DNA of 64,000 bases from Bradyrhizobium sp. (lineage in GTDB: Bacteria; Pseudomonadota; Alphaproteobacteria; Rhizobiales; Xanthobacteraceae): the NCBI RefSeq assembly GCF_022844465.1, contig NZ_JALHLP010000010.1, positions 62,001 through 126,000 on the forward strand. The letters run 5' to 3'. The notes beneath the pieces were generated by a model. That model was not told the DNA's origin. It ran no database searches and was given only the letters and a program-made list of their open reading frames with translations. Shown piece after piece: positions 3,558 through 63,861 of this stretch. Within the stretch, counting starts at the first letter, position 1. The number at the start of each line of letters is the position of its first letter. A program made the translations under genes and the position numbers.

Positions 3558-5300
3558 ATGGTTGAAACCGTCCAACCCCCGCGCTTTGGAGCAGGCCAAC
3601 AGTCTGTGAAGCCTGCGAATTCGAGCCGCAGGCTGGTCGCCGCGTTCGACCTTGCGACAGCGAACCATCTGCGCGCCATCCTGTTCCTGACGTTGTGCGC
3701 GCTGGTGCTTTTCCTGCCCGGCTTCTTCAACATCCCGGCCATCGACCGCGACGAGGCGCGGTTCGCGCAGGCGACCAAGCAGATGGTCGAAAGCGACGAT
3801 TTCGTCGACATCCGCTTTCAGGACGACGTCCGCTACAAGAAGCCGGTCGGCATCTATTGGATGCAGGCCGCCGTGGTCGAGGGCGCGTCCGCGCTCGGCC
3901 TGCCGCGCGCCCAGCTTCGGATCTGGCTCTACCGCATACCCTCCCTGGTCGGCGCCATCGGCGCGGTGCTGCTGACCTATTGGGCCGCGCTCGCCTTCGT
4001 GACGCGTCGCGGGGCGGCGCTGGCCGCGCTGATGATGGCCAGTTCCGTGCTGCTCGGCGCCGAAGCGCGGCTGGCCAAGACCGACGCGATGCTGCTGTTG
4101 ACCGTGGTCGCGGCAATGGGCGCGATGGCCCGGGTCTATCTGTCGTGGCAGCGCGGCGAGGATCCGGCGCGGCCACCCTGGGGTGCGCCGGCGGTGTTCT
4201 GGACGGCGCTGGCCGGCGGTATCCTGCTCAAGGGGCCGCTGATCCTGCTGTTCGTCGGATTGACCATTCTGGCGCTCGCGATCCTCGACCGTTCGGTGGC
4301 GTGGCTTTCGCGGATGCGCCCGGTCTGGGGACTGATGTGGACGCTGGTGCTGGTGCTGCCGTGGTTCGTCGCGATCTTCTGGCGCGCCGGCGATACGTTC
4401 TTTTCCAACTCGCTCGGCGGCGACATGTTGAGCAAGCTCGGCGCGCAGGAATCCCATGGCGCGCCGCCCGGCCTCTATCTGCTGCTTTTCTGGGTGACGT
4501 TCTGGCCGGGGGCGGCGCTGGCGGGAATGGCGGCGCCGGCGGTGTGGCGCGCGCGGCGGGAGCCCGGCGCGCAGTATCTGCTGGCGTGGCTGGCCCCGTC
4601 TTGGATCGTGTTCGAACTCGTCCTGACCAAGCTTCCGCACTATGTGTTGCCGCTCTATCCGGCGATTGCAATCCTCACTGCCGGGGCGCTGGAACGCCGG
4701 GTCCTGTCGCGATCATGGTTGCGGCGCGGCGCGGCTTGGTGGTTCGCCATTCCGGTGCTGGCGTCGGTAATCGCCGTGGTTGGGGCGATCAAGCTGACCC
4801 ATCAGCCGGCGTTTCCGGCCTGGCCGTTTCTGGCGGGTGCGATGGTCTTCGGCCTGATCGCCTGGTGGATGTTCGAGGACAGCCGCGCCGAGCGTTCGCT
4901 CTTGAACGCCGTGGTCGCCGCGATGTTCCTGTCGGTCGGGATCTACGGCGTGGTCATGCCGTCACTGAAGACGCTGTTCCCGAGCGCCGAGGTCGCGCGC
5001 GCGCTTCGCAACGTCGTCTGCGTCGGGCCCAAGGCCGCCGCCGCGGGCTTTCACGAGCCGAGCCTGGTTTTCATGGTCGGGACCGGCACCTTGCTGACGG
5101 ACGGATCGGGCGCCGCCGATTTCCTTGGGCAGGGCAGTTGCCGTTTCGCGCTGGTGGAATCGCGCTCGGAGCGCGTCTTCGTCCAGCGCGCGGAGGCCAT
5201 CGGGCTGCGCTACAACGCGGCGAAGCGCATCGAAGGTTACAATATCTCGCAGGGCAGGGCGATCTCGATCGCCATTTTCCGCTCGGAAGGCACGGAGTAA
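3558..5300 (+). CDS. GT39/ArnT-type glycosyltransferase, polytopic membrane protein
   Basis: FFNIPAIDRDEARFAQATKQMVES...RYKKPVGIYWMQ motif typical of ArnT/PMT-like transferases, many TM segments. Confidence 0.85.
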   Translation: MVETVQPPRFGAGQQSVKPANSSRRLVAAFDLATANHLRAILFLTLCALVLFLPGFFNIPAIDRDEARFAQATKQMVESDDFVDIRFQDDVRYKKPVGIYWMQAAVVEGASALGLPRAQLRIWLYRIPSLVGAIGAVLLTYWAALAFVTRRGAALAALMMASSVLLGAEARLAKTDAMLLLTVVAAMGAMARVYLSWQRGEDPARPPWGAPAVFWTALAGGILLKGPLILLFVGLTILALAILDRSVAWLSRMRPVWGLMWTLVLVLPWFVAIFWRAGDTFFSNSLGGDMLSKLGAQESHGAPPGLYLLLFWVTFWPGAALAGMAAPAVWRARREPGAQYLLAWLAPSWIVFELVLTKLPHYVLPLYPAIAILTAGALERRVLSRSWLRRGAAWWFAIPVLASVIAVVGAIKLTHQPAFPAWPFLAGAMVFGLIAWWMFEDSRAERSLLNAVVAAMFLSVGIYGVVMPSLKTLFPSAEVARALRNVVCVGPKAAAAGFHEPSLVFMVGTGTLLTDGSGAADFLGQGSCRFALVESRSERVFVQRAEAIGLRYNAAKRIEGYNISQGRAISIAIFRSEGTE

Positions 5301-17111: not shown

Positions 17112-18622
17112 TGAGCGACACCCCTTCATCGATTTTCGTTCGCCAGGAGCTGGTGCCCGAACGTTCCGCGCCGGTGAAAACCACCGGCTTTATCGGCTTC
17201 CTGCGCACGCGCCTGTTCAACTCGCCGACCAACATCCTGATCACCATCGTTTGCGCGTTGCTGTTGTGGTTCATCCTCGTGCCGGCGATAAAATTCACGC
17301 TGATCGACGCGGTCTGGACCGGCAAGGACCGCACCGCCTGCCTCCCCAAAAGCCCGAACGAGGTGGTCGGCGCCTGCTGGCCGTTCATCCAGGCGAAGTT
17401 TTCGCAATTCGTCTATGGCTTCTATCCGGAAGCGGAACGCTGGCGGGTCAACCTGACCTTCCTTCTTGCCGCGATCCTGCTGCTGCCGCTGTTGATTCCG
17501 CGTTTGCCGGGTAAGGCTCCCAACGCCATCCTGTTCTTCCTGGCGTTTCCGGTCGTCGCCTTTTTCCTGCTGCATGGCGGCGGACTGGGTGGTTTCGGCG
17601 TGAGCTGGACGGCCGCGCTGCTGTCGGGGTTCAACGACAGCATCGCCGACGGCGGCAGGAAACTGGGCGCCGCCGGCGGTACGACAGCCGTGATCGGGCC
17701 GCTGCTGTGGCTAGTGGGCCAGCTGCTCGTGCTTGTCAGCACGCTGGTCGGCTGGGTGCTGCTGCCATTGACCTGGCTGCGCGAGCAGATCCAGGCCTTT
17801 GACCGGCCGGTGTGGGCCGACCTGGCGGCGACCGCCGTGATCGTGTCCGGCCTGATGCTGTGGCTCGGCGGCGGACTGCGTTCGCTCGCCACCACCCTTG
17901 GGGTGTTTGTCGCCATCGGCGTCGTGATCGCCATCATGGGGCTCGATCGCGGCGGATTTCCCGTTGTCGGCACCAGGCTCTGGGGCGGCCTGCTGGTCAC
18001 GCTGGTGGTGGCGGTCACCGGGATCGTCGCCTCGATGCCGGTCGGCATCGCGCTGGCCCTCGGGCGGCAGTCGACCATTCCCCTGATCCGGATTTTCTCG
18101 ATCGCCTTCATCGAGTTCTGGCGCGGCGTTCCGCTGATCACGGTGCTGTTCTTCGCAACCTATATGCTGCCGCTGTTCGTCCCGACCGGCTTCACCATCG
18201 ACGGGCTGGTGCGCGCCCTGATCGGGATCGCGCTGTTTACCGGGGCCTATCAGGCCGAGAACATCCGCGGCGGCCTGCAGGCTATCCCGCGCGGGCAGGG
18301 CGAGGCGGCGAGCGCGCTCGGCCTGTCCTGGGGGAAGACCACGGCGTTGATCGTGATGCCGCAGGCGCTGCGCCACGTCATCCCGAGCCTCGTCAACAGC
18401 TTCATCGGCCTGTTCAAGGACACCTCGCTGGTATCGATCGTCGCGCTGTTCGATCTGCTGGGTCAGTTGCGCGCGGCATTTGCCGATCCGAACTGGTCGA
18501 CGCCGTCGACGCTGTTCACCGGCTTTGCCTTCACCGGGCTGATCTATTTCGCCTTCTGCTTTGGCATGTCGCGTTACTCGCTGTTCGTCGAGAACCGGCT
18601 GAATGCGCATCGGCGCAACTGA
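17111..18622 (+). CDS. aapM: general L-amino acid ABC transporter permease
   Basis: IEFWRGVPLITVLFFATYMLPLF...GEAASALGLSWGKTTALIVMPQALRHVIPSLVNSFIGLFKDTSLV; overlaps aapQ. Confidence 0.92.
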   Translation: MSDTPSSIFVRQELVPERSAPVKTTGFIGFLRTRLFNSPTNILITIVCALLLWFILVPAIKFTLIDAVWTGKDRTACLPKSPNEVVGACWPFIQAKFSQFVYGFYPEAERWRVNLTFLLAAILLLPLLIPRLPGKAPNAILFFLAFPVVAFFLLHGGGLGGFGVSWTAALLSGFNDSIADGGRKLGAAGGTTAVIGPLLWLVGQLLVLVSTLVGWVLLPLTWLREQIQAFDRPVWADLAATAVIVSGLMLWLGGGLRSLATTLGVFVAIGVVIAIMGLDRGGFPVVGTRLWGGLLVTLVVAVTGIVASMPVGIALALGRQSTIPLIRIFSIAFIEFWRGVPLITVLFFATYMLPLFVPTGFTIDGLVRALIGIALFTGAYQAENIRGGLQAIPRGQGEAASALGLSWGKTTALIVMPQALRHVIPSLVNSFIGLFKDTSLVSIVALFDLLGQLRAAFADPNWSTPSTLFTGFAFTGLIYFAFCFGMSRYSLFVENRLNAHRRN

Positions 18623-18631
18623 GGACCAACC

Positions 18632-19375
18632 ATGGCCGGAAACTCGATCGTCGGCATCAACGGGCTCAACAAATGGTACGGCGATTTCCACGTCCTGCGC
18701 GATATCAACCTCGATGTCGCCAAGGGCGAGCGCATCGTGATCTGCGGGCCGTCGGGCTCCGGCAAGTCGACGCTGATCCGCTGCATCAACGCGCTGGAGG
18801 AATTCCAGGAAGGCAAGATCGTCGTCGACGGCATCGAGCTTGGTCCGAACCTGCGGCGCGTCGACGAGGTCCGGCGCGAAGTCGGCATGGTGTTCCAGAG
18901 CTTCAACCTGTTTCCGCACCTGACCGTGCTGGAAAACTGCACGCTGGCGCCGATCTGGGTGCGCAACATCCCGAAGAAGGACGCCGAGGCCGCCGCCATG
19001 AAATTCCTGGAGCGGGTCAAGATTCCGCATCAGGCCGCCAAGTATCCCGGCCAGATGTCGGGCGGCCAGCAGCAGCGCGTCGCGATCGCCCGCGCGCTGA
19101 CCATGAACCCGAAGGTCATGCTGTTCGACGAGCCGACCTCGGCGCTGGATCCCGAAATGGTCAAGGAGGTGCTCGACACCATGGTCGATCTGGCCGGGGA
19201 GGGCATGACCATGCTGGTGGTCACCCATGAAATGGGTTTCGCCCGCGAGGTCGCCAACCGCGTCGTCTTCATGGACGCCGGCCAGGTGATCGAATCCAAC
19301 ACGCCGGAAAACTTCTTCGCCAATCCGCAGCACGCGCGGACCAAGCTGTTCCTGAGCCAGATCCTGCGGCATTGA
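18632..19375 (+). CDS. aapP: general L-amino acid ABC transporter ATP-binding protein
   Basis: Walker [10 protein letters not shown], signature [15 protein letters not shown], Walker [15 protein letters not shown]. Confidence 0.95.
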
Positions 19376-24503: not shown

Positions 24504-25991
24504 GTGACCGGTCGCATAGCAGTCGCGGTGGTCGATAGCTGGCTGGCCAGGATTCCCGCCGGCCAGTCGCTGGCGCGATGGCTTGCGGTGTTTGGTCTCG
24601 TGGCCAGTTCCGCGGGCTGCATCCTGACCAAGGATTTGCCGGATCCTGCGCTGGACGTGCCCGCAGGTTATAAGTCGGCGCGCTTGACGGCCGCCACCGA
24701 TGCGCCCCCCACGCTCGACTGGTGGCGCGGCTTTCGCTCCCGGGAGCTGACGGGGCTGATGGAGGAGGCGCAGACCGTCAATCTCGACATCGCCGCCGCC
24801 ACCGCGCGATTCAAACAGGCGGATGCACAGGCGCGGATCGCGGGCGCGGCGCTGTTGCCTGCTCTGAGCGGCGCCGGTCAGGAAACCTATTCCCGCACCT
24901 CCGGCTCCAGCGCCAGCGGCCTGACCATCGGCGGCCGCGAGGTCGTCAATTTTTCTGCCTCGCTCAGCGCCAGCTACGAGCTGGATTTCTGGGGCAAGAA
25001 CCGCAACGCCGCCCAGGCGGCGGAAGAGACCGCCGCCGCCACCCGCTTTGACCGCGACGTCGTTGCGCTGACCACGCTGACGACGGTCGCCAACGCCTAT
25101 TTTCAGGTGCTGGCCGCGCAGGACCGGATTCGCACCGCGCAGCGAAACATCGCGAGCGCCGAACGCATCCTCAACGCCATCAAGGAGCGCCTCAGGGCCG
25201 GCACCGGCAACGATCTCGATGTCGCGCAGCAGGAAAGCGTGCTGGCCAACCAGCGCGCGCTGGTGCCGCCGCTGCGCCAGACGCTCGACCAGAACATCAA
25301 TGCGCTGGCAACGCTGGTATCGCGACCGCCGGAAGCGGTGCGCGTCGCCGGTGGATCGCTCAACAACATCGCCGCGCCGCGGGTCACGCCCGGTCTGCCC
25401 TCGGAACTGCTGACCCAGCGTCCCGATATCCGCCGCCAGGAAGCGCAGCTCGCCGCGGCGACCGCGAATGTGGGCAGCGCCCGCGCGCAGTTTTTCCCGA
25501 GCATTCAGTTGACGGGGCAGGGCGGCTATCAAAGCTCGGCGCTGGCTTCGCTGTTCCAGCCGCAAGCCGCTTTTTTCAACATGGTCGGCAGTCTGACCCA
25601 GCCGATCTTCGACGGTGGCAGGATCCTCGGAAACTTCGAACTGACCAGGGCGCGCCAGGACGAGTTGCTGCAAACCTACCGAAAGACCGTCGTGCAGGCC
25701 TTTGCCGATGTCGACAATGCGCTGATGTCGATCCGACAGACCACCGAGCGGCTGCGGCTACAGCGCCAGGTGGTGGCGGCGTCACGGCGGGCATTTCAGC
25801 TCTCCGAGCAGCAGTTGCGGGCCGGCACTGCCGACATCGTGACTGTGCTAAATACCCAGCTGACGCTATTCCAGGCGGAAGATTCGCTGCTGCAGGCCCA
25901 ATTGGCCCGGCTGCTTGCGATCGTCAGCCTTTATCAGGCGCTGGGCGGCGGCTGGGAGCCCAGGATGGAGAGGCCGGTTGATGCTCTTTAG
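24504..25991 (+). CDS. efflux outer-membrane factor (OprM/NodT-family lipoprotein)
   Basis: SSAGCILTKDLPDPALDVPAGYKSA...TLDWWRGFRSRELTGLMEEAQTVNLDIAAATARFKQADAQARIAGAALLP. Confidence 0.9.
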   Translation: MTGRIAVAVVDSWLARIPAGQSLARWLAVFGLVASSAGCILTKDLPDPALDVPAGYKSARLTAATDAPPTLDWWRGFRSRELTGLMEEAQTVNLDIAAATARFKQADAQARIAGAALLPALSGAGQETYSRTSGSSASGLTIGGREVVNFSASLSASYELDFWGKNRNAAQAAEETAAATRFDRDVVALTTLTTVANAYFQVLAAQDRIRTAQRNIASAERILNAIKERLRAGTGNDLDVAQQESVLANQRALVPPLRQTLDQNINALATLVSRPPEAVRVAGGSLNNIAAPRVTPGLPSELLTQRPDIRRQEAQLAAATANVGSARAQFFPSIQLTGQGGYQSSALASLFQPQAAFFNMVGSLTQPIFDGGRILGNFELTRARQDELLQTYRKTVVQAFADVDNALMSIRQTTERLRLQRQVVAASRRAFQLSEQQLRAGTADIVTVLNTQLTLFQAEDSLLQAQLARLLAIVSLYQALGGGWEPRMERPVDAL

Positions 25992-42238: not shown

Positions 42239-43828
42239 ATGTCGACGCTCACCCCGCATGGCGCGAGCTTGCTGTGGAAGCCGGAACTGATCTGGCTGTA
42301 TGCCGTCTCCGACGCCATGCTGGCCATCGCCTTCTTCGCTACCGCGTTCGTCGTCGGGACCTTCGTGTGGCGGCGCCGCGATCTGATGTTCCGCGGCGTG
42401 TTCGGAACATTCGCCATCTTCGCCGCATTCTGCGGGATCAGCCGCCTGCTGGCGATCCTCACTTTGTGGGTACCGGCCTACGAGGTGGAAGGCCTTGCCA
42501 AGGGAGTCCTGGCGCTGATGTCAGTCGGGATCACGGCGGCACTGTTGCTGTCGCTGCCGCGGATCCTGGTGCAGCCGTCACGCACGCAACTTCAGCAGGC
42601 CAATGCGGCGCTCGAGGAGGAAATCCGGCAGCGGCGCAAGGCCGAGGCTCTTGTCAGGCGCTTCCAGGAGAACGAGGCCAACGAGGCCCAGGTCCGGCAA
42701 GCGCAGAAGATGGAGGCCGTCGGCCAACTCACCGGCGGCGTAGCCCACGACTTCAACAACATCCTGACCGTGATCACCGGGACCATCGAAATCCTCGGCG
42801 AAGCGGTCAAGGATCGTCCGCATCTGGTTCAGATCACCGAGATGATTGGTGCCGCCGCGGCGAGGGGGGCCGACCTGACGCGGCGCCTGCTGGCCTTCGC
42901 CCGTCGACAGCCGCTGCAGCCGCGCGACACTGACATCAACACCCTGATCATCGATGCGGTGCAGCTGCTGCGCCCGACCCTTGGCGCGCAGATCGAAATC
43001 GAGTCGATCCTGGCGCACGACTCTGCGCTGGCCCTGGTTGATCCCAGTCAACTCACGACGGCAATCCTCAACCTCGCCCTGAATGCACGTGACGCCATGC
43101 CTGAAGGCGGCAGGCTGACGTTCGAAACCGGGAATGTCGTGCTCGACGAAAACTGTCCCGGCCTGATCGGCGAGCTCAAGCCGGGCAACTACGTCATGAT
43201 CGCGGTGAGCGACACCGGGGAGGGTATCCCCGGCAACCTCCTCGACAAGGTGTTTGAACCGTTCTTCACCACCAAGGAGGTCGGAAAGGGATCGGGGCTG
43301 GGTCTCAGCATGGTCTACGGCTTCGTCAAGCAGTCGAACGGACATGTCAGGATCTACAGCGAGCAGAACCACGGCACCACCGTGAGGCTTTACCTGCCGG
43401 TGGCGGCGGGTGTCGCGGACGCGCTGGCCGCCGATTCTGGCATCCCGGGAAGCGGACATGGCGGCGAATCCATCCTGATTGTCGAGGACGACCCGCTGGT
43501 TCGCGAGTATGTCGTGACCCAGATCAGGCGTTTCGGGTACCACGCCATGGCCGCTGGCAACGCCGCCGAGGCGCTGGCCATCATGGATGGTCCCGAACGC
43601 TTCGATCTGCTGTTCACGGATGTCATAATTCCCGGCGGGCTAAACGGCCGCCAACTCGCGACCGAGGCGCTGAAACGGCGCCCGCAACTTAAGGTGCTCT
43701 ATACGTCGGGTTATAACGAGAACGCCATCGTCCATCATGGCCGGCTCGATGCTGGCGTGCTGCTGTTGCCGAAGCCCTACCTCAATTCCGATCTCGCGCG
43801 GATGATCCGGACCGCGCTGGCATCGTGA
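42239..43828 (+). CDS. hybrid histidine kinase with ethylene-receptor-like N-terminal membrane domain and C-terminal receiver
   Basis: TM region WLYAVSDAMLAIAFF...FAAFCGISRLLAILTLW; GGVAHDFNNIL H-box; ATPase GKGSGLGLSMVYGFVKQSNGH; receiver ILIVEDDPLVREYV...LLFTDVIIPGG. Confidence 0.88.
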   Translation: MSTLTPHGASLLWKPELIWLYAVSDAMLAIAFFATAFVVGTFVWRRRDLMFRGVFGTFAIFAAFCGISRLLAILTLWVPAYEVEGLAKGVLALMSVGITAALLLSLPRILVQPSRTQLQQANAALEEEIRQRRKAEALVRRFQENEANEAQVRQAQKMEAVGQLTGGVAHDFNNILTVITGTIEILGEAVKDRPHLVQITEMIGAAAARGADLTRRLLAFARRQPLQPRDTDINTLIIDAVQLLRPTLGAQIEIESILAHDSALALVDPSQLTTAILNLALNARDAMPEGGRLTFETGNVVLDENCPGLIGELKPGNYVMIAVSDTGEGIPGNLLDKVFEPFFTTKEVGKGSGLGLSMVYGFVKQSNGHVRIYSEQNHGTTVRLYLPVAAGVADALAADSGIPGSGHGGESILIVEDDPLVREYVVTQIRRFGYHAMAAGNAAEALAIMDGPERFDLLFTDVIIPGGLNGRQLATEALKRRPQLKVLYTSGYNENAIVHHGRLDAGVLLLPKPYLNSDLARMIRTALAS

Positions 43829-43924: not shown

Positions 43925-44525
43925 TTCTGACCCGACGGGCAAATCACCAAAAGTCTGTCGAGCCCTCGCGCGAAAAATATTTGGCTTTTCTGATAATCCG
44001 AACTGCCCTATAAGCCGCAGGTCTCTTCCCGGCAAGAGGGGCGATCGCGCGTCGTCACGAACGTGGGAAGGGATGCGGTGGACGCGGGCAGCGCCGGCGC
44101 GCAAGGGATCGCAGGGCGGATTTTCCGTGAGCGGCCCTCAAGCGCGCGATACGAACGGCGGTGCCCTGCGTACGGCAAAAGCGTGTGGTCCTGGCAACCC
44201 GTGGCTGGTGTCAAGCCGGCGGAGATTGCGAGAGCCCAACCGGGCTTTTCGCAATCGTCAATTCGCCGGCGATGGAGGCAAGACGAATTCGTCTCCAGGG
44301 AGAGCGCGCCATAAGCCGTCAACCCATTGCGCAGGGAATGCCGGCGTGCCCCGGCTGTACCTGTATGCTCGTGTGCGCCTCTTCTACCACCATTGCACAC
44401 GAGACCGCGGGTGCAGCAAGCACCCGGCATTCCCTGCTCCCTCTGTTTCGAGGGAGACAAGGTTCAACCACAGCAAACCTCGGGCGCAACACGCCGCGGG
44501 AACGCTACGTCGTGTTTGTCATGAA
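43925..44525. repeat. large dispersed repeat of Bradyrhizobiaceae type with several nested stem-loops; possible structured RNA
   Basis: No convincing CDS; long inverted repeats gcagggaatgccgg/ccggcattccctgc, ctcgtgtgc/gcacacgag, gggtgc/gcaccc, ctccctc/gagggag, gattgcgagagccc/gggcttttcgcaatc. Boundaries approximate. Confidence 0.65.
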
Positions 44526-56940: not shown

Positions 56941-58317
56941 TTGGAACCCTTCGACCGTGAAGGGAGCGCCGACCGTCCGAGGTCGGCGGGGAACAAACCG
57001 ACCGGGCGGGTGATCGTCATCGGCCCCTATCTGCGCGTGCGCCGCGGCGATGCCGACGCGCAGGCGAGTGAGGGCGTTCGCGATTCCGAGGCCCGGCTGG
57101 AGGAAGCGGCCGGTTTGGCGCGGGCCATTGACCTCACGGTCGCGGACACCCTGATCGCGCCTGTCAGCCAGATCAGGCCAGCGACCTACCTCGGCAAAGG
57201 CAAGGTCGAGGAGATCATCGGCCTCATTGCCGGTCACGACATCGAATTGGTGGTGATGGATTGCGCGCTGTCGCCGATCCAACAACGGAACCTCGAGAAG
57301 GCCTGGAACACCAAGGTTCTCGACCGCACCGGGCTGATCCTGGAAATCTTCGGCCGCCGTGCCAAGACCAAGGAGGGGGCGCTGCAAGTCGAACTCGCGC
57401 ACCTGAACTATCAGCGCAGCCGGTTGGTGCGATCCTGGACCCATCTGGAGCGCCAGCGCGGCGGCTTCGGCTTCATGGGCGGCCCCGGCGAAACCCAGAT
57501 CGAGGCCGACCGCCGCCTGATCGGCGACCGTATCGCGCGGCTGGAGAATGAGATCAAGAAGGTGCAGGCGACGCGACGGCTGCACCGGGCCGGCCGGCAG
57601 CGGGTGCCATATCGGGTGGTCGCGCTGGTCGGCTACACCAACGCCGGCAAGTCGACCCTGTTCAACCGGCTCACGCGCGCGGACGTGCAAGCTGCCGACA
57701 TGCTGTTTGCAACGCTGGACCCGACGCTGCGCTCGCTGAGCCTGCCGCATGGCGGCAAGGCGATGCTTTCCGATACCGTCGGATTCATTTCCAACCTGCC
57801 GACGCAACTGGTGGCCGCCTTTCGCGCCACGCTTGAAGAGGTGCTGCAGGCGGATATCATCCTGCACGTCCGCGACGTATCGCACGAGGACGCGGAGGCG
57901 CAGGAGCGTGACGTTGACGCCGTGCTGCGCCAGCTCGGCATCGATCCCGACGCAGGACAACGCATCCTCGAAGTCTGGAACAAGATTGATCGCTTCGATC
58001 CTGAGCAACGCGAGAACCTGCGCAACATTGCCGCGCGCCGTCCGCCGGAACGGCCGTGCTTCCTGGTCTCGGCCCAGACCGGGGAGGGAATCGAAGCGCT
58101 GTTGATCGCAATCGAGGACCGCCTTGCCGCCAAGCGCACGACGCTCGACCTTTCGATCGATGCTTCCGACGGCGCCGGCATCAGCTGGCTGCACAGGAAT
58201 TCCGAGGTGCTCAACAAGGTGCTTCTTGACGGTCGCTTCGACATGACTGTGCGCGTCGACGAGACCAAACGCGACATCGTGGTGTCTCGATTCGATGCGG
58301 TGCCGCGCGTGGCGTGA
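56941..58317 (+). CDS. hflX: GTPase HflX (TTG start)
   Basis: GPGETQIEADRRLIGDRI, G1 GYTNAGKSTLFNRLT, DTVGFISNLP; downstream of hfq. Confidence 0.94.
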   Translation: MEPFDREGSADRPRSAGNKPTGRVIVIGPYLRVRRGDADAQASEGVRDSEARLEEAAGLARAIDLTVADTLIAPVSQIRPATYLGKGKVEEIIGLIAGHDIELVVMDCALSPIQQRNLEKAWNTKVLDRTGLILEIFGRRAKTKEGALQVELAHLNYQRSRLVRSWTHLERQRGGFGFMGGPGETQIEADRRLIGDRIARLENEIKKVQATRRLHRAGRQRVPYRVVALVGYTNAGKSTLFNRLTRADVQAADMLFATLDPTLRSLSLPHGGKAMLSDTVGFISNLPTQLVAAFRATLEEVLQADIILHVRDVSHEDAEAQERDVDAVLRQLGIDPDAGQRILEVWNKIDRFDPEQRENLRNIAARRPPERPCFLVSAQTGEGIEALLIAIEDRLAAKRTTLDLSIDASDGAGISWLHRNSEVLNKVLLDGRFDMTVRVDETKRDIVVSRFDAVPRVA

Positions 58318-58323
58318 GCGCTG

Positions 58324-59163
58324 TTAATCGCGCGGCATGGTTGCCCGCGGCTCCGCTGCCTTCGCCTCATTCCACAGGGCGTCCATCTCGGCGAGGCTCG
58401 CCTCTTCGAGCGACCGGCCACTGGCGGCGAGCGCGCGCTCGATATGGGCGAAGCGACGCTCGAATTTTGCGTTGGCGCCACGCAGCGCGGCTTCCGGATC
58501 GGCGCCGACATGGCGGGCGAGGTTGACCAGCGCGAACAGCAGGTCGCCGGTCTCGGCGGCGAGTTCCTCCGCATCGCCGCAATCCAGCGCCGCCTCGATC
58601 TCGTCGGCCTCCTCGCGAATCTTGTTGAGTACTGCACGCGGGTCGTTCCAGTCGAAACCGACGGTTGACGCCTGGCGCTGCAGCGCCATCGCACGCGTCA
58701 AGGCGGGCTGGCCGGTCTTGACGCTCGCCAGCAGCGACTTGTGTCCGGTCTCCGGCGAGAGCCGCCGCGCTGCACGTTCGGCCTTCTCCTCGGCCTTGAT
58801 GCGTTCCCAGGCGCTCTTGACCCCGGCAGGCGCAATATGGCCGTCCTTGTCGGCGAACACATGCGGATGCCGGCGGATCATCTTGCATGTGATCGCCTCG
58901 ACCACGTCGCCAAAGGCAAAGGCATTCTGCTCTTCCGCCATGCGGGCGTGGTAGACGACCTGCAGCAGGAGGTCACCCAATTCGTCGCGGAGATCGTCGA
59001 GATCGCCGCGGGCAATGGCATCGACCACCTCATAAGCCTCCTCGATCGTGTAGGGCGCAATCGTCGCAAAGGTCTGCTCGATATCCCACGGGCAACCCGT
59101 CACCGGTGTACGCAGCGCCGCCATGATCTCGAGTAATCGGGCAATATCGCGGGAAGGGGTCAT
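58324..59163 (-). CDS. mazG: nucleoside triphosphate pyrophosphohydrolase MazG
   Basis: CPWDIEQTFATIAPYTIEEAYEVVDAIARGDLDDLRDELGDLLLQVVYHARMAEE; ATG 59163. Confidence 0.94.
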   Translation of the reverse strand: MTPSRDIARLLEIMAALRTPVTGCPWDIEQTFATIAPYTIEEAYEVVDAIARGDLDDLRDELGDLLLQVVYHARMAEEQNAFAFGDVVEAITCKMIRRHPHVFADKDGHIAPAGVKSAWERIKAEEKAERAARRLSPETGHKSLLASVKTGQPALTRAMALQRQASTVGFDWNDPRAVLNKIREEADEIEAALDCGDAEELAAETGDLLFALVNLARHVGADPEAALRGANAKFERRFAHIERALAASGRSLEEASLAEMDALWNEAKAAEPRATMPRD

Positions 59164-59292: not shown

Positions 59293-60021
59293 ATGAGCGA
59301 GCAAGCTTCATCCGAAACCGCGCTGGTGTTGTTTTCCGGCGGACAGGATTCCACGACCTGTCTGGCCTGGGCGTTGCGGCGCTTTGCGCGCGTTGAAATG
59401 CTCGGCTTCCGCTATGGCCAGCGCCACGCGATCGAGCTGGCCTGCCGCGACCGTCTGCTGTCGGGGCTGCGATCATTGCAGCCCGAATGGACGGAGAAAC
59501 TCGGCGAGAGCCACACGCTTGACATCCCCACGCTGGCCGAGATTTCCGACACCGCGCTGACTCGCGATGTTGCCATCGCCATGGGTTCGGATGGCCTTCC
59601 CAATACTTTCGTGCCGGGCCGCAATCTGGTGTTTCTGACCTTCGCGGCAGCGCTGGCGTACCGGCGCGGCATCCGCCATATCATCGGCGGCATGTGCGAA
59701 ACGGATTATTCCGGATATCCAGACTGCCGCAACGAGACCATCAAGGCGCTGCAGTCGGCGCTCAATCTCGGCATGGCCAGGAATTTCGAGCTGCACACCC
59801 CGCTGATGTGGCTCGACAAGGCCTCGACCTGGAGGCTTGCGCGTGAGCTTGGCGGGGCAGGGCTGGTCGACCTGATCCGCGAACACTCCCACACCTGTTA
59901 TCTCGGCGAGCGCGGCGCGCAGCACGAATGGGGCTATGGCTGCGGCGAATGCCCGGCCTGCGCGTTGCGGGCAAAGGGCTGGCGGGAATATGCGGGCACT
60001 CCGTCATTGAAAGGAGCGTAG
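59293..60021 (+). CDS. queC: 7-cyano-7-deazaguanine synthase
   Basis: [19 protein letters not shown]-loop; [17 protein letters not shown] zinc motif. Confidence 0.95.
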
Positions 60022-61760: not shown

Positions 61761-61903
61761 GGAAATAAGGATATTCGCAGAACCCGCACCATGTCGAGGC
61801 CGGGACAGGCCACCGGAACCACCCAACCGCGAAAGATCGCGCTTGGGTCGCGGGCGCATTTCTGGGAAGGTTTCGGAATGTACCGGGCAGGGAGGCCAGG
61901 CGT

Positions 61904-62710
61904 TTGGGCGACTATGTCAAGATTGAGAAGGGACTGGGCCCGGATGGCCGCATCGCGGTGGTGCGTTTCGACCGCGACGACGGCATCAATGCGCTGTCGC
62001 CGGAGGCCCTGCGTCAGCTCACCGAGGCTGCCCGTAGTTTCGAGGACGACGGCGCGACGTCGGTCGTGGTTCTGACCGGGGGCGCCAAATCGTTCAGCGC
62101 CGGCTTTGACCTGAAGGATGCGGAGGGGCGGGCACGAAAGACCATGGATATCGGCGACTTGCGCCGACATTTGAAACTTGGGCCGCGGCTGACGCGGGCC
62201 TGGCAGGAGATGGAGCAGATCACCATCGGCGCCATCGAGGGCTTTTGCATCGGAGGCGGCGTCGCGCTGGCGGTCGCCCTGGATTTCAGGGTCATGGCGC
62301 GCGATGCTCATATGCGCGTGCCCGAGATCGGGCTCGGCATGAACATGAGCTGGCAGAGCGTGCCGCGGATGCTGCACCTGATGGGACCAGCCCGTACCAA
62401 GCAGGCCGTGATCCTGGCCGATCAGCGGATCTCGGCGGCGGAGGCCTACGAATGGCGGCTGGTGGAGGAGGTGGCCGATCCCGGCAAGGCGTTCGACGCC
62501 GCGATGGCGCTCGCTGCCAAGGTCGCCGCGCAACCGCCGCTGTCGGTCGCCATGACCAAGCTGACCGTCAATCGGCTGGCGCATGCGCTTGACGACCTCG
62601 CCAGCCACATGGACATCGACCAGTTCGCGCTCGCGAGCATGACCCAGGATCACAAGGAGGGGGTCGAGGCTTTCCTCGGTCGCCGCAAACCGAAATTCAG
62701 GGGGAGGTGA
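61904..62710 (+). CDS. enoyl-CoA hydratase/isomerase family protein
   Basis: [22 protein letters not shown]...[38 protein letters not shown] crotonase signature. Confidence 0.9.
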
Positions 62711-63268: not shown

Positions 63269-63835
63269 ATGCCGATCGAAAATGCCGAGCATTTGATCGA
63301 AATCCGTGTTGATCGGCTGGCCCAGCTATTTCACACGCTCGATCCGTTTCCGTTCCGGGAAAAAGATCTCGATCAGGAGGCCGAAGACTACATCGTCAGT
63401 TGGGCGCGCGAACTCCCGGAGAAGCGTCCAATCAGGATTGCCGTCCAGGTCCGTGACGAAGACGTGAAGGCCTCCAACGCCAAAGAGCTGAATGAGGCCT
63501 TTCAGAGCTATTTCGCGGGCCGGGCGGTCGCTGTCCAGCACGAGCTCAATGAGCTGTTCCGGGTCGGCCGTCGCGCACTCGCAATCGGCATTCCGATCCT
63601 GGTGGGATGCTTTCTTTCTGCGCGGTTCGCCGCCGGATATCTGACCGAGAATCCGGCCCAACGGCTGGTCGAGGAAAGCCTCCTGATCCTCGGCTGGGTC
63701 GCGAACTGGCGGCCGCTGGAAATCTTTCTGTACGATTGGTGGCCTGTGGCGCGCCGGCGTGAACTCTACCGTCGCCTGGCGGTCGCCGAGGTCGAGCTGA
63801 AGCCGTACGCCGAGAAGCCATCCCCATATCGATGA
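63269..63835 (+). CDS. conserved hypothetical protein with hydrophobic C-terminal half
   Basis: Single ORF with plausible ATG; hydrophobic segment ALAIGIPILVGCFLSARFAAGYL; no family recognised with confidence. Confidence 0.75.
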   Translation: MPIENAEHLIEIRVDRLAQLFHTLDPFPFREKDLDQEAEDYIVSWARELPEKRPIRIAVQVRDEDVKASNAKELNEAFQSYFAGRAVAVQHELNELFRVGRRALAIGIPILVGCFLSARFAAGYLTENPAQRLVEESLLILGWVANWRPLEIFLYDWWPVARRRELYRRLAVAEVELKPYAEKPSPYR

Positions 63836-63861
63836 TTCGCATAAGGTATATTATGGAATAT
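63834..63861 (+). other. dif: dif-like chromosome dimer resolution site (XerC/XerD target)
   Basis: gattcgcataa|ggtata|ttatggaatat aligns to E. coli dif GGTGCGCATAA|TGTATA|TTATGTTAAAT at 22/28 positions with correct 11-6-11 architecture. Confidence 0.85.

Follow-up and report, generated by a model that had tools for sequence, protein, structure and literature searches.

A 28-bp dif site at a KOPS polarity switch in the chromosome of a Bradyrhizobium-group alphaproteobacterium

Does a 28-bp sequence overlapping the end of an open reading frame (ORF) in a Bradyrhizobium-group genome mark the junction of the two replichores, or does it belong to a mobile element or resemble a dif site by chance? 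The window, the whole stretch of DNA analysed here (64,000 nt), covers positions 62001–126000 of contig C10 (138,290 bp). From the letters of this stretch, the original prediction had placed a dif site with an 11-6-11 layout at 63834–63861, had counted by hand 22 of 28 positions identical to E. coli dif and had noted an overlap with the stop codon of ORF 63269–63835. All three points were reproduced upon recomputation: the 28-mer GATTCGCATAAGGTATATTATGGAATAT lies on the forward strand at exactly these positions, agrees at 22/28 positions with E. coli dif, and shares 2 bp with the ORF. It occurs once in the window, and the number of copies expected from shuffled sequence was 0. The local features, in window coordinates, are as follows.

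63834..63861, + strand: dif site of 28 bp, 11-6-11 (GATTCGCATAA-GGTATA-TTATGGAATAT); exact, unique in the window and in the genome, and the same as the published B. japonicum USDA 110 dif
63834..63844, + strand: predicted XerC-binding arm GATTCGCATAA, assigned via alignment to E. coli dif
63845..63850, + strand: central hexamer GGTATA, the same in nearly all listed Bradyrhizobium main sites
63851..63861, + strand: predicted XerD-binding arm TTATGGAATAT, assigned via alignment to E. coli dif; this arm is conserved genus-wide
63269..63835, + strand: ORF of 188 aa with no NCBIfam match, whose TGA stop extends 2 bp into dif; this neighbour varies between relatives

The likeness to E. coli dif comprises the 11-6-11 layout, the inner arms and five of the six central bases, whereas the outer arm bases differ and the first central base is T in E. 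coli and G here.

Copy number and conservation were evaluated across the host assembly and the genus. One copy per replicon had been expected, and a single copy was found in the whole genome (5,008,332 bp in 32 contigs) when up to three arm mismatches and a free centre were allowed; a reversed control pattern was absent from the same genome. Among 272 genus genomes, the pattern TTCGCATAA-N6-TTATGGAATRT was present in 259, and a one-mismatch version was recovered in eight of the remaining 13, so that a site with at most one mismatch is carried by 267/272 (in G082, for example, at 4,996,161–4,996,186). The centre of the main site is almost always GGTATA, and the named records bearing the same site are mostly Bradyrhizobium. 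No dif-like site was seen in G030, G209, G211, G239 and G254 even at three mismatches; these absences could be assembly gaps, with two of the five assemblies less than 90% complete, and G030 and G209 estimated at 99% and 95%. Furthermore, comparison of genus loci, each taken with 1.5 kb of flanking DNA, showed that the genes beside dif often differ among relatives and that few loci share the neighbours found in the window. Because the 28 bases are kept while their flanks change, selection probably acts on the 28-bp site itself.

A switch in KOPS polarity at dif is a hallmark of the chromosomes of E. coli and V. cholerae, as it is of large secondary replicons (PMC2533119; PMC13342612). A KOPS inversion near the site had been named as a test of the prediction, and a sharp switch was found both in the host contig and in a complete relative, G021 (7,998,085 bp, with its dif-type site at 5,207,891). 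Within the host contig, the KOPS octamer GGGNAGGG showed forward/reverse counts of 21/0 left of dif, with no reverse-strand motif on that side, and of 0/3 to its right. Within 200 kb of the G021 site, the corresponding counts were 35/1 and 0/32, the switch falling at the site. When every octamer in the dif region of G021 was scanned without bias, GGGCAGGG proved to be the most polarised (45 towards dif vs 1 away). KOPS samples taken along G021 also change sign at ~1–1.8 Mb, roughly opposite dif. The motifs inside the window are listed below.

5127..5134, + strand: KOPS GGGNAGGG pointing towards dif (contig position 67127)
5252..5259, + strand: KOPS towards dif (contig position 67252)
18293..18300, + strand: KOPS towards dif (contig position 80293)
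19196..19203, + strand: KOPS towards dif (contig position 81196)
25515..25522, + strand: KOPS towards dif (contig position 87515)
43217..43224, + strand: KOPS towards dif (contig position 105217)
44065..44072, + strand: KOPS towards dif (contig position 106065)
58081..58088, + strand: KOPS towards dif (contig position 120081)
59151..59158, + strand: KOPS towards dif (contig position 121151)
59855..59862, + strand: KOPS towards dif (contig position 121855)
61885..61892, + strand: KOPS towards dif (contig position 123885)

The proposed location at the replication terminus was assessed in complete relatives, the host assembly being in 32 contigs. The gene mnmG is origin-linked in alphaproteobacteria, and the mnmG–dif distance amounted to 46.9%–50.1% of the chromosome in all seven complete relatives used (G002, G005, G008, G010, G015, G021 and G025), placing the site opposite mnmG, in agreement with the prediction. 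The alternative origin marker hemE was rejected: it lies 1.9–3.5 Mb from dif in complete relatives and not opposite, and mnmG was therefore taken instead. The hemE gene itself was located at G000:C5:41647-42651, and it is no mark of the origin in Bradyrhizobium, unlike in some other alphaproteobacteria. GC skew was likewise dropped as a locator of dif, being weak and noisy in the sampled 20-kb blocks; in G021, the sampled peak lay near 5.4 Mb and a local turn 80–100 kb before the site, and over the samples the shift stood ~100–200 kb from the site. For the USDA 110 chromosome, the published offset between dif and GC skew is 102,766 bp (PMC2731167). The skew offset in G021 fits this ~103-kb value but does not pinpoint dif.

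The recombination machinery was sought in the host genome. XerD was recovered at 333.5 bits (above its cut-off of 329.6), a second recombinase had XerC as its best family at 305 bits (below the curated cut-off of 335), and one FtsK gamma domain was found (E=1.2e-26). These scores point to a host that encodes XerD, an XerC-like partner and an FtsK gamma domain. Taken together, the sequence, the single copy, conservation across the genus, the KOPS inversion, the position opposite mnmG in relatives and the XerC, XerD and FtsK genes indicate that the 28-mer is almost certainly the chromosomal dif of this Bradyrhizobium-group alphaproteobacterium, at the junction of its two replichores. By analogy with the E. 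coli and V. cholerae systems, the 28-mer would be bound and cleaved by XerC and XerD under FtsK-dependent activation. Briefly, once sister chromosomes had been fused into a dimer through homologous recombination, the septum-associated translocase FtsK would read KOPS and pump DNA towards dif from both sides; FtsK would then activate XerD, and XerC and XerD would exchange strands over the 6-bp centre to yield two monomers. The site shares with V. cholerae dif1 and dif2 (PMC2533119) its XerCD/FtsK type and its place at a switch in KOPS polarity, and differs in that one such site only is present in the genome studied here.

Two other origins of the 28-mer were weighed against chromosomal dif. A chance likeness to dif in an AT-rich palindrome where a gene ends would suit a short motif that overlaps a stop codon; however, across both strands of the contig (276 kb) the score of 22/28 against E. 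coli dif was reached at this place alone, the runners-up scoring 17 (two places) and 16 (three places). With no other place in the contig above 17/28, the resemblance is not attributable to chance, and neither the absence of the 28-mer from shuffles nor its near-invariance in 267 of the 272 genomes despite differing flanks accords with a coincidence, which we regard as vanishingly unlikely. An origin as a dif-like attachment site, whether from a plasmid or from an Xer-dependent mobile element that has integrated, is also highly improbable. Same-arm sites do occur on plasmids and viral contigs of this group, but the centres of those sites differ from the GGTATA seen here, and the host site is single in its genome, has chromosomal neighbours and lies where KOPS polarity inverts.

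The neighbouring genes bear on a further suggestion, that the bases beyond the site carry no clear gene and could be where Xer-dependent mobile elements integrate. The first part proved wrong: an ORF that begins 145 bp past dif, at C10:126006 (window position 64006), codes for an acyl-CoA synthetase (PRK08162, 964 bits), and it had escaped notice because the window ends there. The second part found no support, since the neighbours are ordinary chromosomal genes and the whole genome yielded no second dif-like copy flanking foreign DNA. In many of the Bradyrhizobium loci checked, the acyl-CoA synthetase gene lies ~3.2 kb from dif, as against 145 bp here. In three of these loci (L129, L166 and L177), the ~3.2-kb stretch between the two resembles TRAP transporter genes, a label given from reading the ORF sequences rather than from a family search; this stretch is absent from the host genome. 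It was considered as an insertion at dif and rejected, as it reads as ordinary chromosomal genes.

The chromosomal dif identified here also has a direct precedent. A dif site was predicted in 2009 for B. japonicum USDA 110 by Carnoy and Roten. That site, at 4,996,172, is identical to the host 28-mer at 28/28 bases (PMC2731167), which lends the identification further support and means that the finding was already known. The dif site here is thus correct, already known and ordinary: with it, the chromosome terminus is located and the contig oriented, and its KOPS polarity confirms a dif sequence earlier predicted for a relative, leaving the understanding of dif systems unchanged.

Beyond the chromosomal site, the genus survey returned same-arm sites with other centres. 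A centre not starting with G was present in 32/272 genus genomes. One of these, TGTATA in G195, looks chromosomal and is on a 7.4-Mb contig; the remainder are mostly on separate contigs, several of which are second contigs of 130–980 kb in near-complete assemblies. Second dif-like sites on plasmid-like contigs were seen in G010:C2, G071:C2, G081:C2 (pBBta01; L173), G172:C2, G228:C2, G230:C2, G233:C2, G247:C2 and G264:C2, with arms as in chromosomal dif and centres that include CATAGA, CCTTCA, CTTACA and TGAAGA, among others. Plasmid pBBta01 carries two dif-like sites, which face opposite ways and differ in their centres. KOPS polarity was weak around the G247:C2 site (16/4 left, 6/8 right), and around the G010:C2 site the motifs were too few for polarity to be assessed.

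Dif-like sites with the same arms were also present in 22 viral contigs. In six of these 22 (L293, L294, L295, L304, L309 and L310; IMG/VR), RepC is encoded near the site, within the stretch examined, which suggests that the repC-bearing contigs are phage-plasmids using the XerCD of the host. Rhizobium phages, RHEph10 among them, have related RepC proteins. In L291, L297, L299, L301, L303 and L308, the gene near the site is one for a terminase large subunit, and the stretch examined showed no RepC. Chromosomal-type centres mostly end in ATA, whereas this ending is lacking in 21/22 viral centres and in those of the listed C2 plasmids, with the sorting of sites into chromosomal and mobile being partly interpretive. 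This contrast was not built in, because the search fixed the arms and left the last bases of the centre free.

In V. cholerae, divergent dif centres are thought to prevent replicon fusion (PMC2533119), a parallel to the divergent-centre plasmid sites of the Bradyrhizobium group, and in Enterobacteriaceae dif-like sites occur on all replicons larger than 250 kb (PMC11724359). For the Bradyrhizobium group, our judgement is evenly balanced as to whether the 6-bp centre acts as a replicon identity tag, an arrangement in which all replicons would have their dimers resolved by the XerCD of the host and yet be kept from fusing with the chromosome. Such a role of the centre has precedents in V. cholerae and in bacteria with several chromosomes; its application to rhizobial plasmids and phage-plasmids is potentially new. 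How replicons that share one recombinase pair avoid fusion could be studied with the help of these plasmid and phage centres.

Plasmid-type sites with the centres CCTTCA and TTTTCA adjoin ORF pairs (L317, 9342–9932; L324, 8890–9941), and similar pairs stand beside plasmid-type sites in L318 (8964–9931) and L326 (8886–9937). The L324 pair consists of an HTH_17 protein and a PIN-domain protein and is toxin-antitoxin-like, an arrangement of plasmid-type site and gene pair that recalls the pdif modules of Acinetobacter.
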